Shown here: piece after piece, positions 8,809 to 64,000 of the stretch
Position numbering within the stretch: the stretch's first letter is position 1
How the letters are laid out: each line of letters begins with the position of its first letter
Assembly (NCBI GenBank): GCA_903851195.1
Contig: CAINNJ010000055.1
Coordinates: forward strand, 1-64,000
Length of the DNA: 64,000 bases
Direction of reading: 5' to 3'
Origin: an uncultured Acidobacteriia bacterium
GTDB lineage: Bacteria > Acidobacteriota > Terriglobia > Bryobacterales > Bryobacteraceae
Made by a program: the position numbers and the translations under genes
Notes under the pieces: model-generated
What the model was told of the DNA's origin: nothing
The model's database searches: none
What the model saw: the letters and a program-made list of their open reading frames with translations, nothing else

Positions 8809-11800
8809 TTGTTGGCGTTCCTCTTCGTGCTGGCCGCGCCTTTGTATGCGGCGGGGCCTTCGGGAAGCCTGCAGGGGGTGGTGAGAGACAGCAGCGGGGG
8901 CGTGGTGCCGCACGCCGTTGTCCGCGCCACAGGCGCCGGGCGGACTTACGGGAACCAGACCGGGGAGCCGGGCGAGTTTCTGATGACGGGCATGCAGCCG
9001 GGCCTTTACAAAGTCGAAGTGGAAGCGGACGGCTTTCGCACCGCGGAGGCGCCCGGAACTCTCATCCAGGTGGATCAGGTGACGCGTCTCGATATCCGCC
9101 TTGAGGTCGGCTCCGTTCGCGAGGTCATGCAGGTGGAGGCCGCGACGCCGGGTATCGACAGCACCTCGGCCACACGCAAATGGACGGTGCCGCGCGAGGT
9201 GATTTCCGGTATTCCGCTAAATGGCCGGCAATTTCTCGACCTCGCGATGCTGGTTCCGGGCAGCGTCGCCGCGCCCGCCGGCACACAGGGCGCCGGGTTC
9301 AGCGTCAACGGGATGCGGTCGCAGTCGAATGTTTATCTGCTGGACGGTATCAGCAACACCGATACGCAGACGAACCAGCCGCTGAACCTGTTCCGTATCA
9401 CGGATGCCGTGCAGGAGTTCTCGGTGCAGACCAGCGCTGTCCAGCCGGAACAGGGCCGGGAGACCGGCGGGCAGGTGAACGTGGTCACGCGCAGCGGCGG
9501 CGAGGAATTCCACGGCGGCGTGTTTGAGTTCTTCCGCAATACCGTGCTGAATGCGGCCGATTTCTTTACGAACAAACTGGGCGGCGTAAAGAATCCGCTG
9601 AACCGGAATCAGTTCGGCGCCACGCTTGGTGGTCCTTTGCACCGCGGGGGGACTTACTTTTTCAGCTCCTGGGAAGGCTTTTATCAAAGCGCGCCGACGG
9701 TAACCAGCACGCTGACGCCGTCCGTCGCGCAACGGGCCACCGTGACCGATCCGGTCTCGCGAAAACTGCTGGCCTTTTATCCTTTGCCGAACGTGGCCGG
9801 AGGGCAGTCTTATATCGGAAATGTCAGTAACTCCGATCATGACCACACGGGGCTGATCCGGCTGGACCACCGGCTTACGGCAAGGGATCAAATGGCGGCC
9901 CGGTGGACGCAGTTCGCCGGCGACGACACCACGCCTGGCGCGACTCCGCTGTCGGGCGGCAACGCGGGGCCTTCGGCGCAGGCATCGGGAATGCTGGACG
10001 AGAGTCACAGCTTCTCGCCCGCGACCACCAGCGATCTCCGCTTCGGTTTCTCGCGGTATGCGGTGACGCGCACGCCGCAGGACGCGGGGTTCGATGCGCG
10101 GACCGTGTTCACCGGCGCGGATGGCAACGCGCTGCCGGGCGTGATTGCGAACGGCGGTCTGCCGACCATCAGCATTACGGGTGGATTCGCCAGTCTGGGC
10201 GCCGGCATGAATTTTCCGCAGGGAAGAACCACCAATACGTTTGAATTGGTGGATTCGGTGGCGCAGACCGCGCCATTCGGTTTGACGGAACATGCCTGGT
10301 CGTGGGGCGCCAGTGTGCGGCGTGAAGAACTGTATCGCTATCTGGATCGCGCGAGCCGCGGGGTGATTAATTTCGCCAGCTTCGCGGACTTCGCGCGAGG
10401 CCAGATCAACTCCGCCACGATCCGCAGCGGGAGCACGTATTCGTCCTGGAGCCGGACGCCTGCAGCCTTCTTCTGGCAGGACCGCTGGCGCCCGCAGCCC
10501 GGCGTCAGCGTCACGTACGGACTGCGCTATGAACTCTTCTCCGCGCTGGCGGAACGCGAACACCGGGCGGCCAACTATATTCCCGGAACAGGGCTCGTGG
10601 TTGTGGGCACGAACCGGGTGCTGGATATCGACCCACTGCGCACCGGGCCGGCCGCGCTGGTGCTTCGCGACAGCCCGCTTTCGCTGCCGGGCTCCGGCAT
10701 GTACGCGAACCGGAACAACGTGGCTCCGATGCTCGGCGTGGTCTGGTCACCGGGCAGCGGCGGACAACTGGCGGTCCGCGCCGGTGTTCGGGTGGGTTAC
10801 GACGATCTTTTCAACAACATTCCCGTGAGTATGGGGCTGGCTCCGCCGGCGAGCCTGCAGACGACGCAGACCGCAAACGTGACGCAGCCGGGCCGCTTTG
10901 CGTGGCCGCTGGCGTTCGATCAGAACGTTCCCCTGATTTCCAATTTCGGCAGGCAGGGGCCGGGGACGCCGGTGAGCGGCGTGATTGCGCTGCAGGGGAT
11001 CGATCCGCATCTGCAAAATGCGCGAGCGCTGCTTTATCATCTGGGGCTGCAGCGGCAGTTCGGACAGTTCGCGCTCGAAGCCGATTATCACGGAAGCCAG
11101 GGCCGTCACCTGGGCGTTTTCACCGATGTGAACCAGCCCGTAGTCATCGTGCGGGATGCGGCGAAGCGCGGGCCGGTGACGCCGAACGAACAGGTGTTTC
11201 CGGACCCGCGGTTCGGGCAGATTCAGATCGCCAAATCGATTGCGAATTCAGGTTACAACGCCGGCACGATTAGTCTAAGACGGCAGGCTCGCTCCGGTTC
11301 TTACTTACAAGCGTCTTACTCTTTGGCTAAGTCGATTGACGACAATTCTTCTTACTATGGTTCCGGAAGTCAGCCGGGGGAACCGGGCGCGCCGATCGAC
11401 AACCGTAATCTTCGCCTGGAACGAGGTGCGTCCGCCTTCGATGTCCGCCAGAGTTTCGTCGCGGCCGCCGTGTTCGCGATTCCCCGCTGGCGCGCGGCGA
11501 CGGGCATTGCGGGCTACGCGCTGCGGGACTGGAAGCTTTCCGGCATCGCCACCCTGCAGGCCGGAACTCCGTTTACCGTGGTGATGGGCGGCCCCGATAC
11601 CAGCGGTTTCAACCAATCCACGCAGGGCAGCAGTCCGAACGCGCAGAATCGTCCGAACCTGACGGGAGCGGGGCCGGTGGCGCAGGACAATCGCAATCCG
11701 GACGCGGCTTTCGATATCACCCGGTTCAGCGCCTCGCTGGCCGGTCAGCCCGGGACGGCCGGCCGCAACATTTTGTACGGCCCGGGGCTCAGCAACATCA

Positions 11801-12042: not shown

Positions 12043-12945
12043 TCAGGCGCGCAGGTTGCGGAGATACTGGTAATCCACTTTCATGGATTCGAGCGCGGGC
12101 ATGTCGTGGAACGGCGGTTCCTGCTCCACGAACATACAGGCGATGTCCAGCTTCTTCGCGGCGGTGAAAATCCTGGCGTAGTCGATGCCACCGCGCCCGA
12201 GTTCGGTCGGCACGGGCGCGTGTTCGCCGGTGTCACCCAGCCTGGTGGTGGGCGTAAAGCCCGGCTTAAATTCTTTGATGTGGAGCAGTTTGAAGCGGTC
12301 GGGACAGCTGTTCAGAAGCTCCACGGGATCGTGCCCGGCCACGGTGACCCAGCCGCAGTCCAGTTCCAGGCTGACGAGACCGGCATCGGTCTCGCGCAGC
12401 AGTTCGTCATAACCGGTGACGCCGCCTTCGAGCTTTTTAAATTCGAAGTTGTGATTGTGATAAGCCAGCTGTAAGCCTGCCTTTTTCACCTGTTCGCCGA
12501 TTCTGTTGAAATGCGCCGCGCTCCATTTGTAATCGTCGAGCGTGAGGGCGTTCACCAGGGCGATGAAGAAGCCAATCTTACCGGCTTGCGGGTCGGCGTG
12601 AACGCGGGAAAGGTCGATGATCCAGGGTACGGTCATCACCATGTAATGCTGGCCCAGGGTTTTGGCGAAAGCGATCTGACTGTCCGGATCCTTCAGCAGA
12701 TCCGGCAGCAGGTAATGTCCGGCGGGATTCTTCAGCCCCACGTCGTCGAGCATCCGGCGCAGTTCGTTCGCGCCGAGGTTCGACATCGGCGACAGTTCCA
12801 CGTCCTTGTAGCCCGCGGCGGCGACCTGTTTCAGGGTACCGGCGGGATCCTCTTCCATCTCTTCGCCGACGGTGTAGAGTTGCAGGCCGATCGGCGCGGG
12901 CAGGATGCCGTTTTCGAGGCCCATCGTCTCCTCGTTCGTGGGCAT
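12043..12945 (-). CDS. Sugar phosphate isomerase/epimerase, xylose-isomerase-like
   Basis: A cytoplasmic TIM-barrel protein of about 300 residues in the AP-endonuclease-2/xylose isomerase-like superfamily. Diagnostic segments are IGLQLYTVGEEM at the first strand, YHNHNFEF (metal-site His region), LELDCGWVTVAGHDPVELL, HIKEF and the closing MFVEQEPP. The Glu and His residues in these blocks form the usual divalent-metal site. The substrate may be an inositol- or keto-sugar-type compound but is not determinable. The start at 12945 is preferred over 12972 because it lies one base after the TGA of the MetE-like gene, giving a coupled TGAAATG junction. No signal peptide, unlike the Tat homologue at 61375. 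Confidence 0.85.
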   Translation of the reverse strand: MPTNEETMGLENGILPAPIGLQLYTVGEEMEEDPAGTLKQVAAAGYKDVELSPMSNLGANELRRMLDDVGLKNPAGHYLLPDLLKDPDSQIAFAKTLGQHYMVMTVPWIIDLSRVHADPQAGKIGFFIALVNALTLDDYKWSAAHFNRIGEQVKKAGLQLAYHNHNFEFKKLEGGVTGYDELLRETDAGLVSLELDCGWVTVAGHDPVELLNSCPDRFKLLHIKEFKPGFTPTTRLGDTGEHAPVPTELGRGGIDYARIFTAAKKLDIACMFVEQEPPFHDMPALESMKVDYQYLRNLRA

Positions 12946-29361: not shown

Positions 29362-29730
29362 GCGCTTCTTTACTGACACGCGCAAGTCCAGCCGCCGGAC
29401 ACGGCTGAACGGGTGGTTGCTTCGCTGTTTGACGCTGTGCCCGGCGTTTCTTGCGCTTCTTTACTGACACGCGCAAGTCCAGCCGCCGGACACGGCTGAA
29501 CGGGTGGTTGCTTCGCTGTTTGAGGCTGTGCCCGGCGTCTCTTGCGCTTCTTTACTGACACGCGCAAGTCCAGCCGCCGGACACGGCTGAACGGGTGGTT
29601 GCTTCGCTGTTTGACGCTGTGCCCGGCGGCTCTTGCGCTTCTTTGCTGACACGCGCAAGCCAGCCGCCGGACACGGCTGAACGGGTGGTTGCTTCGCTGT
29701 TTGACGCTGTGCCCGGCGTCTCTTGCGCTT
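29362..29730. repeat. Tandem array of four 90-91 bp palindromic units
   Basis: Units begin at 29362, 29453, 29544 and 29635, with the start of a fifth (GCGCTT) at 29725. Spacing is 91, 91, 91 and 90 bases. Each unit has GCGCTTCTTT, then ACACGCGCAAG, then an inverted repeat (GCCGCCGGACACGGC and GCTGTGCCCGGCG in the first unit, 29391-29405 and 29434-29446) around a 28-nt loop starting TGAACGGGTGGTTGCT. Copies differ at only a few positions, so the array is recent. There are no unique spacers between units, so it is not a CRISPR. A diverged single copy interrupts the sulfatase at 69-158. Confidence 0.9.
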
Positions 29731-29799
29731 GGTACCAACACGCGCGACGCATCGCCTGGGCTGTCTTCGGAAGCCGCCCGCCGGATAGACTAATAGTTC

Positions 29800-62340: not shown

Positions 62341-62423
62341 CCGCCCACGGACCGCCAGCTGCCCGCGCGGTCCGTCGGGCGGTTGAGTTGTGGCACTAGT
62401 GTTAGGCTAACGAGAGACCTCGC

Positions 62424-63842
62424 ATGTCAGCGCAGATCCTGTTACAGGGCAGACTGCTGGGGGCGGATGAATTTCTCCTTTCCGCTCCGGCAGATAAAGA
62501 TAATCGTGCGTTTGAAGCGCGCCTCTGGTGGGTGGCGTTGCTGGGCGACGTCTTGCCGCGCGCTCTGCTCGCGGAACTGCAACTGCCTCCTCTGCTTCTG
62601 GGCTCGGCCGGTGGCGGCAGATTTCTGGTGATTCTTCCGGATAACGCCCGCGCCGCGGCTGCCGGCGAGTTTCTCGACAAGGTCAGCGAGGCGCTCGAAC
62701 GCTTTACCGGCGGAGTCGTGCGCATCGCCTGGAGTGCCACGGAAAATCTGGGCGACTGGACAGTCGTCCGCAAGCGCCTGCAGGACGGCACGCGCGCTTC
62801 GCAAAAAACGCACGCCCCCGCGGCCGGCTTCTTCGACCCTTTCGTTCCCGCGCCCTCCGGCGATTCGATTCCGCGCGGTCTGCGCGACGCCACCGGCATC
62901 GGTTTCAGCCTGGATTTCCCGGCACTGCTCGGCATCGAAGGCGGCCAACATCGCTGGGATCTCGGCCGTCAGGCCAGTCTCGAAAACATCTCGCTTACCC
63001 GGCACGCCGCGCGCAACGGCGACGCCATCGCATCGGTGAAGGAACTCGCCAAGCGCGCCAAAGGCGAAAAGCTCTGGGGCATGCTGCGCGGCGAGATCGA
63101 CGATTTCGGCACCCGCATCCGCCGCGCCCAAAGCGTGGAAGAGCATGTCCAGCTTTCCATGCTGTACAAGCAGTTTCTGGCGGGCGAGATCGAACTGCTC
63201 TGTTCCCAGGGCGACTACTTCCAGCGCGTCACCGTCCTTCGCGCCGATACCGCCGATTTCGCGGTCTATGGCTCCTGGGACGCCCTGCCCGGATTTGCCC
63301 GCGAACTGCAGCGCGTCTTCGCCGTCTTCGCTGAAGAGAACCTGAAGGAACTGCCCGGCGGGGAAGCGAAGAGCATCACCATGGCGACCACGCTGGCCGA
63401 CCCGGGCGCGGCTATCGCGCGCGTCTGGCAGGACAGCGTTCGGGATCTCGAAATCGCTAAGGCGTCCGATAAGGATTGCTTCTACATGCTGGGCGAAGTG
63501 CTCGAATGGAAGCAGCTGAACGAGGCGGCGGAACTCAAAGACACCGTGGTTCAGCTGAACGAGGAATTCCGCGGCGGCAAGCAGTTCCTTAGCCAGTTGC
63601 GTAACCTGTATAAGAAGGCGGAAACGCCCGGCGCGGGTCCGGCCGATCAGGAACGCCTCATGGCGCGGGCCGTCCGTTTTCAGCGGCGCTTTGCCCGCGT
63701 GGCGAATCGCAAAGAGCGCGAGTTCCAGAAGTTGCGTTCCCATCTGATGAAAGAAATGGCCGGCCGCAGTCAGAGGGGCCGGCTCAAATTGCGGCCGGAA
63801 GGTTTGGTGGCGCTCGAGTGGGCGCGCCTCGCAGAGGATTAG
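62424..63842 (+). CDS. Divergent HD-less Cas10-like protein (type III CRISPR)
   Basis: A 472-residue protein that I read as a reduced Cas10, the large subunit of type III effectors. It begins directly at the first palm domain: RLWWVALLGDVLPRALLAEL, then GSAGGGRFLVILP at residues 60-72, as in Csm1. KLWGMLRGEIDDFGTRI (EIDDFG at 224-229) replaces the usual LGVLRMDVDNLG strand. LRADTADFAVYGSWD (residues 272-286) aligns with the YAGGDDxFxVGxWD block, so GGDD has become DTAD. LGEVLEWKQLNEAAEL near residue 355 and the helical tail (RAVRFQRRFARVANRKERE) match the final domain. There is no N-terminal HD nuclease domain and no zinc-finger Cys pairs; typical Csm1 has about 750-850 residues. Predicted inactive as DNase and as cyclic oligoadenylate synthase. 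Supported by pattern only. Confidence 0.72.
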   Translation: MSAQILLQGRLLGADEFLLSAPADKDNRAFEARLWWVALLGDVLPRALLAELQLPPLLLGSAGGGRFLVILPDNARAAAAGEFLDKVSEALERFTGGVVRIAWSATENLGDWTVVRKRLQDGTRASQKTHAPAAGFFDPFVPAPSGDSIPRGLRDATGIGFSLDFPALLGIEGGQHRWDLGRQASLENISLTRHAARNGDAIASVKELAKRAKGEKLWGMLRGEIDDFGTRIRRAQSVEEHVQLSMLYKQFLAGEIELLCSQGDYFQRVTVLRADTADFAVYGSWDALPGFARELQRVFAVFAEENLKELPGGEAKSITMATTLADPGAAIARVWQDSVRDLEIAKASDKDCFYMLGEVLEWKQLNEAAELKDTVVQLNEEFRGGKQFLSQLRNLYKKAETPGAGPADQERLMARAVRFQRRFARVANRKEREFQKLRSHLMKEMAGRSQRGRLKLRPEGLVALEWARLAED

Positions 63843-63848
63843 AGAGAC

Positions 63849-64000
63849 ATGGCTGAAGAGCAGGCGAAACAACAGGGAAATCGCGAAAATCGGCCGCCCC
63901 GCGAAGGCGGCGGTGGCTCCCGGCCCGGTGGCCGCCCCGCCGGTGGACCCGGTAGCGGTGGTCCCGGCGGCGAACGGCGCGAAGGGCGTCCCGGGGGTGA
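63849..64000 (+). CDS. Gly/Arg/Pro-rich protein, 5' part only
   Basis: A gene starting ATG 63849, six bases after the Cas10-like stop, with the GAGAG of the stop region as ribosome site. The 50 visible residues (MAEEQAKQQGNRENRPPREG, then GGGGSRPGGRPAGGPGSGG and onwards) are a low-complexity Gly/Arg/Pro region. The end is cut by the window. In a type III locus the next gene is often a small subunit such as Csm2, so this could be a disordered N-terminal extension of one, or an unrelated RNA-binding protein. No domain is visible yet. Confidence 0.55.
   Translation, partial: MAEEQAKQQGNRENRPPREGGGGSRPGGRPAGGPGSGGPGGERREGRPGG

Follow-up and report, generated by a model that had tools for sequence, protein, structure and literature searches.

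The window examined here is a stretch of 64,000 nucleotides opening a 220,556-base contig (G000:C55) of an uncultured member of the Bryobacteraceae. Close to its right end lies a complete cas10 ORF with an ATG start, coding for 472 amino acids (aa), which is preceded by a promoter-like element and followed on the same strand by csm2, csm3, csm4 and csm5 (Table 1). The window stops within csm2. Each of the four csm genes exceeds its own NCBIfam cut-off and, as they stand directly after cas10, the operon encodes a Csm complex derived from type III-A.

Table 1. Features of the csm locus, numbered from the first base of the window
Feature	Position	Strand	Evidence or remark
Extended -10 promoter-like element TGnTAnnnT (TGTTAGGCT)	62400..62408	+	immediately 5' of cas10; same element in relatives
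cas10/csm1, no HD domain, DTAD in place of GGDD	62424..63842	+	ORF, profiles, alignment, AlphaFold2 model
csm2 start, RG-rich N-terminal extension	63849..64000, continues to 64439 beyond the window	+	TIGR01870, 5.9e-11
csm3	64465-65301, same contig beyond the window	+	TIGR02582, 1.8e-57
csm4	65324-66724, same contig beyond the window	+	TIGR01903, 9.7e-42
csm5	66721-67872, same contig beyond the window	+	TIGR01899, 8.7e-19

The 472-aa protein was matched by the NCBIfam Csm1 profile TIGR02578 (3.5e-32; 112 bits, the full-length cut-off of 170 not being reached), with the best stretch at positions 481-734 of the 753 in the profile. It was also matched by the PADLOC Cas10 profile (7.1e-13) and by Pfam Cas10-Cmr2_palm2 (1.5e-5; 25.5 bits, slightly below the cut-off of 27). 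An AlphaFold2 model (mean pLDDT 85.5, pTM 0.84) gave 78 matches in the PDB at E <= 0.001. The best 50 of these were without exception Csm1 or Csm-complex entries, and the top match was 9g9j_A (E 8e-18, TM 0.73 by query length).

The Palm 2 domain and the Csm1 fold are present in this protein, and the GGDD cyclase motif is not. Neither the profiles nor alignment to solved Csm1 revealed an HD domain: the N-terminus aligns, in weak stretches, with Csm1 residues about 250-275, and with TIGR02578 position 222. The tetrapeptide DTAD (residues 275-278) is aligned under the GGDD of solved Csm1 and sits, in the model, at the turn that joins strand 269-274 to strand 278-284. The zinc-finger Cys set is absent, because the whole protein contains only 2 Cys. 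These results confirm that the gene encodes a Cas10/Csm1 without an HD domain and with GGDD changed to DTAD, as an earlier note on this DNA had read from its letters, including the missing Cys pairs. The same note had drawn a comparison with types III-C, III-D and III-F, to none of which the system belongs, since csm2-csm5 lie above the III-A (Csm) cut-offs and cas10 scores best as Csm1. The HD domain is optional in Cas10, being present in 39% of surveyed type III loci according to the text of PMC11229360. In one relative of the same genus (L060, genome G010), cas10 carries a mid-protein insertion of ~30-40 residues that is acidic and rich in proline and threonine.

A scan of named genomes yielded 149 relatives, of which 80 loci were examined (alignment A2 comprises 42 of the 80). 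As far as the contigs reach, the genes of these loci run on one strand in the order cas10-csm2-csm3-csm4-csm5, with csm2 and csm3 each found in 78, csm4 in 72 and csm5 in 63; 17 of the loci are cut off by a contig end with part of the operon missing, and L085 is the one exception, with no csm2 match inside its contig. Of 11 further family loci, 10 show the same order and the eleventh is truncated. The N-terminal extension of Csm2 is RG-rich, with fewer than two RG/GR pairs only in L080 (a cut sequence), L091 and L114 among 78 rows. None of the 78 loci has lost the catalytic Asp of the Csm3 GGxD motif. The roles of this residue, of the HD domain and of GGDD we take to be those of known type III biology; on that footing backbone cleavage, which the earlier note had offered as one possible activity of the system, would depend on the one known catalytic site that remains.

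The pattern TGnTAnnnT was first spotted in the genus of the window, where 16 of 17 loci carry it (0.2 expected; it is missing from L052), and was then checked on 44 of the 64 loci from other genera, all 44 of which have it within 75 bases upstream (0.68 expected). Directly 5' of this element, one relative alone (L120, 9572-9930) has a tandem repeat of 70-base units, which is no CRISPR array because the units are near-identical. No operon neighbour is conserved family-wide, the commonest flanking ORF family being present in 16 of the 80 loci. A Uma2-family gene directly after csm5 (C55 67880-68374, past the window end) was rejected as a part of the system, since a relative occurs in only 1 of the 80 loci and is placed upstream of cas10 there. 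An acidic tail of Csm4 was seen in many members of the genus; the alignment cut was rough and the tail was hence not used as a feature.

In the 80 loci, the state of the cyclase motif separates the genus of the window from the other genera. In the 64 loci outside the genus, GGDD is found in 59, GGND in 2, GSDD in 2 and GGED in 1. All 16 relatives within the genus (L049-L064) have lost GGDD, and 11 different tetrapeptides stand in its place (ENAE and GSAD three times each, GAAD twice, eight others once each). Likewise, RGDxD retains its first Asp in 63 of 64 loci outside the genus and in none of the 16 inside. The lack of GGDD that the earlier note had pointed out is characteristic of this genus and of a few further lineages, and not of the system in general. 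Among the 11 further family loci, the motif is lost in g55 (2 loci), g70 (1) and g5 (1 of 3), and GGDE was read in g44 and g47; GGED and GGDE both occur in loci with known effectors, as reported in the text of PMC11229360.

A tree was built without the motif columns from 62 rows; L064, L096, L104, L106, L108, L122 and L123 are not among them, nor are roughly half of the rows from other genera. The genus of the window forms a single clade (SH-aLRT 100), which branches from within the GGDD members. With the two GGND rows scored as neither lost nor kept, at least four changes of the cyclase motif are needed on this tree, the losses outside the genus being less firmly counted because the tree is a quick one in which g70 and g5 have long branches. 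For cas10, eight pairs within the genus gave dN/dS values of 0.054-0.125 and seven pairs outside it 0.061-0.112; these values are rough because dS is high in several pairs. Judged by these ratios, cas10 is under purifying selection, and the repeated loss of the cyclase motif, in several lineages, came with no relaxation of it. Csx1_HEPN, sought as a signalling partner, was found in 0 of 200 family genomes.

Distribution was assessed with a cas10 match threshold of E <= 0.001, mostly in draft MAGs. Within the genus, 18 of 19 genomes (including that of the window) and 13 of 13 good ones have cas10; the relatives of the gene are 63-83% identical to it, and 19 of the 19 listed matches are free of internal stops. 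In the Bryobacteraceae as a whole, cas10 was detected in 185 of 200 genomes, 136 of 141 good genomes and 70 of 76 genera, and the csm cas10 is nearly always present in a single copy per genome. No sampled genome of g8 (G025, G096, G130, G151, G164) or g64 (G081, G123) has it; g64 is also without the solitary Cas6 described below, which g8 keeps in 2 of 5 genomes. Two typical members of the clade, L067 (Nevskia soli) and L124 (Acidimicrobiia bacterium), probably come from misnamed genome bins.

Among the genomes sampled from the class, 52 of the 54 that belong to the family matched, against 1 of 196 from outside it (a weak match of 63 aa at 2.6e-4), the split between family and non-family depending on a kinship-sorted listing. 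None of 6 genomes of the sister family in the order gave a match. The phylum sample gave 8 matches in 247 genomes, namely 2 of the family and 6 others (3.5e-10 to 2.1e-5). Four of these six, all except G408 and G590, were examined: each encodes a Csm1-like protein other than this cas10, with GGDD and a length of 831-860 aa in three cases and 531 aa in the fourth. Plasmids and phages gave no match. The Csm complex is close to being a core trait of the Bryobacteraceae.

To the right of position 64,000, where the earlier note had advised looking for Csm or Cmr subunits and a CRISPR array, the rest of csm2 and csm3-csm5 were found and an array was not: none was detected in C55:60001-120000, nor in the loci of the 80 relatives. 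Repeat runs in the operon loci L056, L087, L112 and L120, in the operon regions L207 and L210 and in the Cas6 regions L159 and L176 were rejected as arrays, being either tandem repeats whose units are near-identical or two-copy repeats. Within the window itself, positions 29388-29750 hold a tandem repeat of four near-identical copies of a 90-91-base unit, which is not CRISPR either. Arrays do occur elsewhere in the same genome, on C34, C38, C50 and C60, with Cas1 on C50. C60 also carries ordinary-looking type III genes, including a 560-aa Cas10-like ORF with GGDD. A second type III-like locus (L152, G000:C38:184001-196635) has a 552-aa Cas10-like ORF (9131-10789, minus strand), in which RAGEDF stands where the cyclase motif is presumed to be, and its CRISPR array starts at 12274; the type III genes on C60 and C38 were recognized by ORF reading and weak TIGR02578 matches.

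Cas1 is present in 110 of the 200 family genomes. The csm operon is about as common with it as without it (105 of 110 Cas1-positive and 80 of 90 Cas1-negative genomes, p = 0.11), and its presence is independent of Cas1. Array-like patterns, defined as three or more ATTGAARC handle pairs on a strand, so that other handles escape, were seen in 59 of 110 Cas1-positive and 4 of 90 Cas1-negative genomes, and in 2 of the 69 genomes that have csm and Cas6 and no Cas1 (G031, G132). G159, an assembly of only 2 contigs, likewise has csm and Cas6 and lacks Cas1, and it shows no such pattern. Independence from adaptation is firmer than the absence of arrays, because the pattern misses about half of the Cas1-positive genomes.

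Pfam Cas6 was matched in 170 of the 200 family genomes. In 20 regions around such matches, several of them short, we found one related standalone gene, without conserved neighbours and without a CRISPR array. PADLOC identified it as Cas6 in three members (8e-70 to 1e-76), Pfam placed it above the cut-off in four, and NCBIfam gave a weak match in 1 of 4. A profile of this solitary Cas6 (alignment A3 left out L162, cut at a contig end) had matches at E <= 1e-25 in up to 169 of the 200 family genomes; in 7 of these the best match has an E-value above 1e-45 and may be a different Cas6. Among the genomes sampled from the class, it was found (E <= 1e-10) in 49 of the 54 that belong to the family and in 9 of the 196 from outside it. 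In the genome of the window, the gene lies on C60, a few kb from the type III genes there. Cas6 accompanies csm in 162 of 185 genomes, leaving 23 csm-positive genomes without a match, and occurs in 7 of 15 genomes without csm (p = 4e-4); the link is only suggestive, because among good genomes the figures are 119 of 136 with csm and 3 of 5 without. No source of guide RNA was found near the operon: no hairpin shared by the 17 genus loci was seen by eye in the 160 bases upstream of cas10, Rfam gave no match in C55:60001-100000, and no arrays were found in the loci. Detecting repeats that are used outside of arrays is a known difficulty, as noted in the text of PMC8730458.

Across the clade, DNA cutting, signalling and memory are, to judge from the genes, variable or absent. 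We favour an RNA-guided RNase that receives its guides from the solitary Cas6, because what stays constant is a filament that would hold and cut RNA, together with an enzyme of the crRNA-processing type. On the proposed mechanism, the solitary Cas6 would cut a precursor RNA encoded elsewhere into guides, and the Csm complex, loaded with these, would cleave complementary RNA through Csm3. In the genus of the window, Cas10 would be no more than a scaffold; in most other genera it may also signal. We give about even chances to the view that a III-A-derived Csm ribonucleoprotein was adopted by the Bryobacteraceae for a near-core function that is encoded on the chromosome and has been uncoupled from CRISPR memory, acting as an RNA-guided RNase. 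The narrower proposal, that the domesticated effector and the solitary Cas6 form a family-wide housekeeping RNase that uses non-CRISPR guides against the cell's own transcripts and still works where both known Cas10 activities are gone, is held more tentatively, at somewhat under even chances.

The main rival is the use of arrays in trans, by which Csm would remain an antiviral effector that has lost its own array and receives crRNAs from the arrays of the genome via a general-purpose Cas6. The arrays on four contigs of the window's genome and the frequent ATTGAARC handles in Cas1-positive genomes agree with it; such use in trans has been proposed for III-G, and most III-B, III-C, III-E and III-F loci are without arrays (text of PMC12669027). 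However, csm persists in most Cas1-negative genomes, few of which show array-like patterns even where Cas6 is present, and dN/dS of cas10 is as low as 0.072 between two Cas1-negative members of the genus (L053-L057). We regard this rival as possible and rather less likely than the adopted RNase. A complex without any base-pairing guide, which would either bind RNA as a scaffold or cut it guide-free, the RNA being brought in by the RG-rich Csm2 tail, would account for that extension and for the guide source not found, but it is improbable given the invariant catalytic Asp of Csm3 and a Cas6 kept almost as widely as csm. The missing HD domain, GGDD and array might also mark a decaying remnant of a type III system, a very improbable reading that is already contradicted by sequence constraint, namely the intact reading frames, the low dN/dS within the genus and the promoter-like element in nearly all of its loci.

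That the complex occurs almost throughout the sampled family and that no CRISPR memory was found next to it suggests a CRISPR machine in permanent work of another kind. Type III systems are viewed as patchy and mostly signalling. An array-free, near-core Csm complex sets RNA cutting apart from both memory and signalling, and offers a way to test whether an effector of CRISPR origin can turn into an ordinary regulator guided by RNA.

We found no printed description of this complex in the literature searched, mostly without subscription papers, and "Acidobact" does not occur in the main texts of PMC12669027, PMC11229360 and PMC5294841. One type III survey required complete genomes and a Cas10 of at least 500 aa (text of PMC11229360), so that the 472-aa protein would be left out. 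According to the text of PMC12669027, ~97% of Cas10 proteins are predicted to be active.

Among known systems, the complex resembles type III-A (Csm) in Cas10/Csm1 and Csm2-Csm5 by profile and in the Csm1 fold by structure, and III-A-like operons from other families of the phylum have the same gene order, with a Cas6 gene adjoining in two (L203, L204). It differs from type III-A in having no HD domain and no linked array or Cas6, in the RG-rich tail of Csm2, in being near-core in a family and in the loss of the cyclase in several lineages. With III-G, as described in the text of PMC12669027, it shares an inactive cyclase (here in this genus), a locus without an array and the lack of adaptation genes. 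However, III-G has retained HD and lost the Cas7 Asp, whereas here HD is absent, the Csm3 Asp is kept and csm2 is present where III-G would have Csx26. The cyclase is also inactive in III-C and III-F (text of PMC11229360); the subunits here are not of their families, csm2-csm5 scoring best as III-A. Isolated type III cas loci, which made up 28% of type III loci in one survey, likewise have no array within 10 kb (text of PMC5294841); in contrast to these, the complex described here is one orthologous lineage across 70 of the 76 sampled genera of a family.
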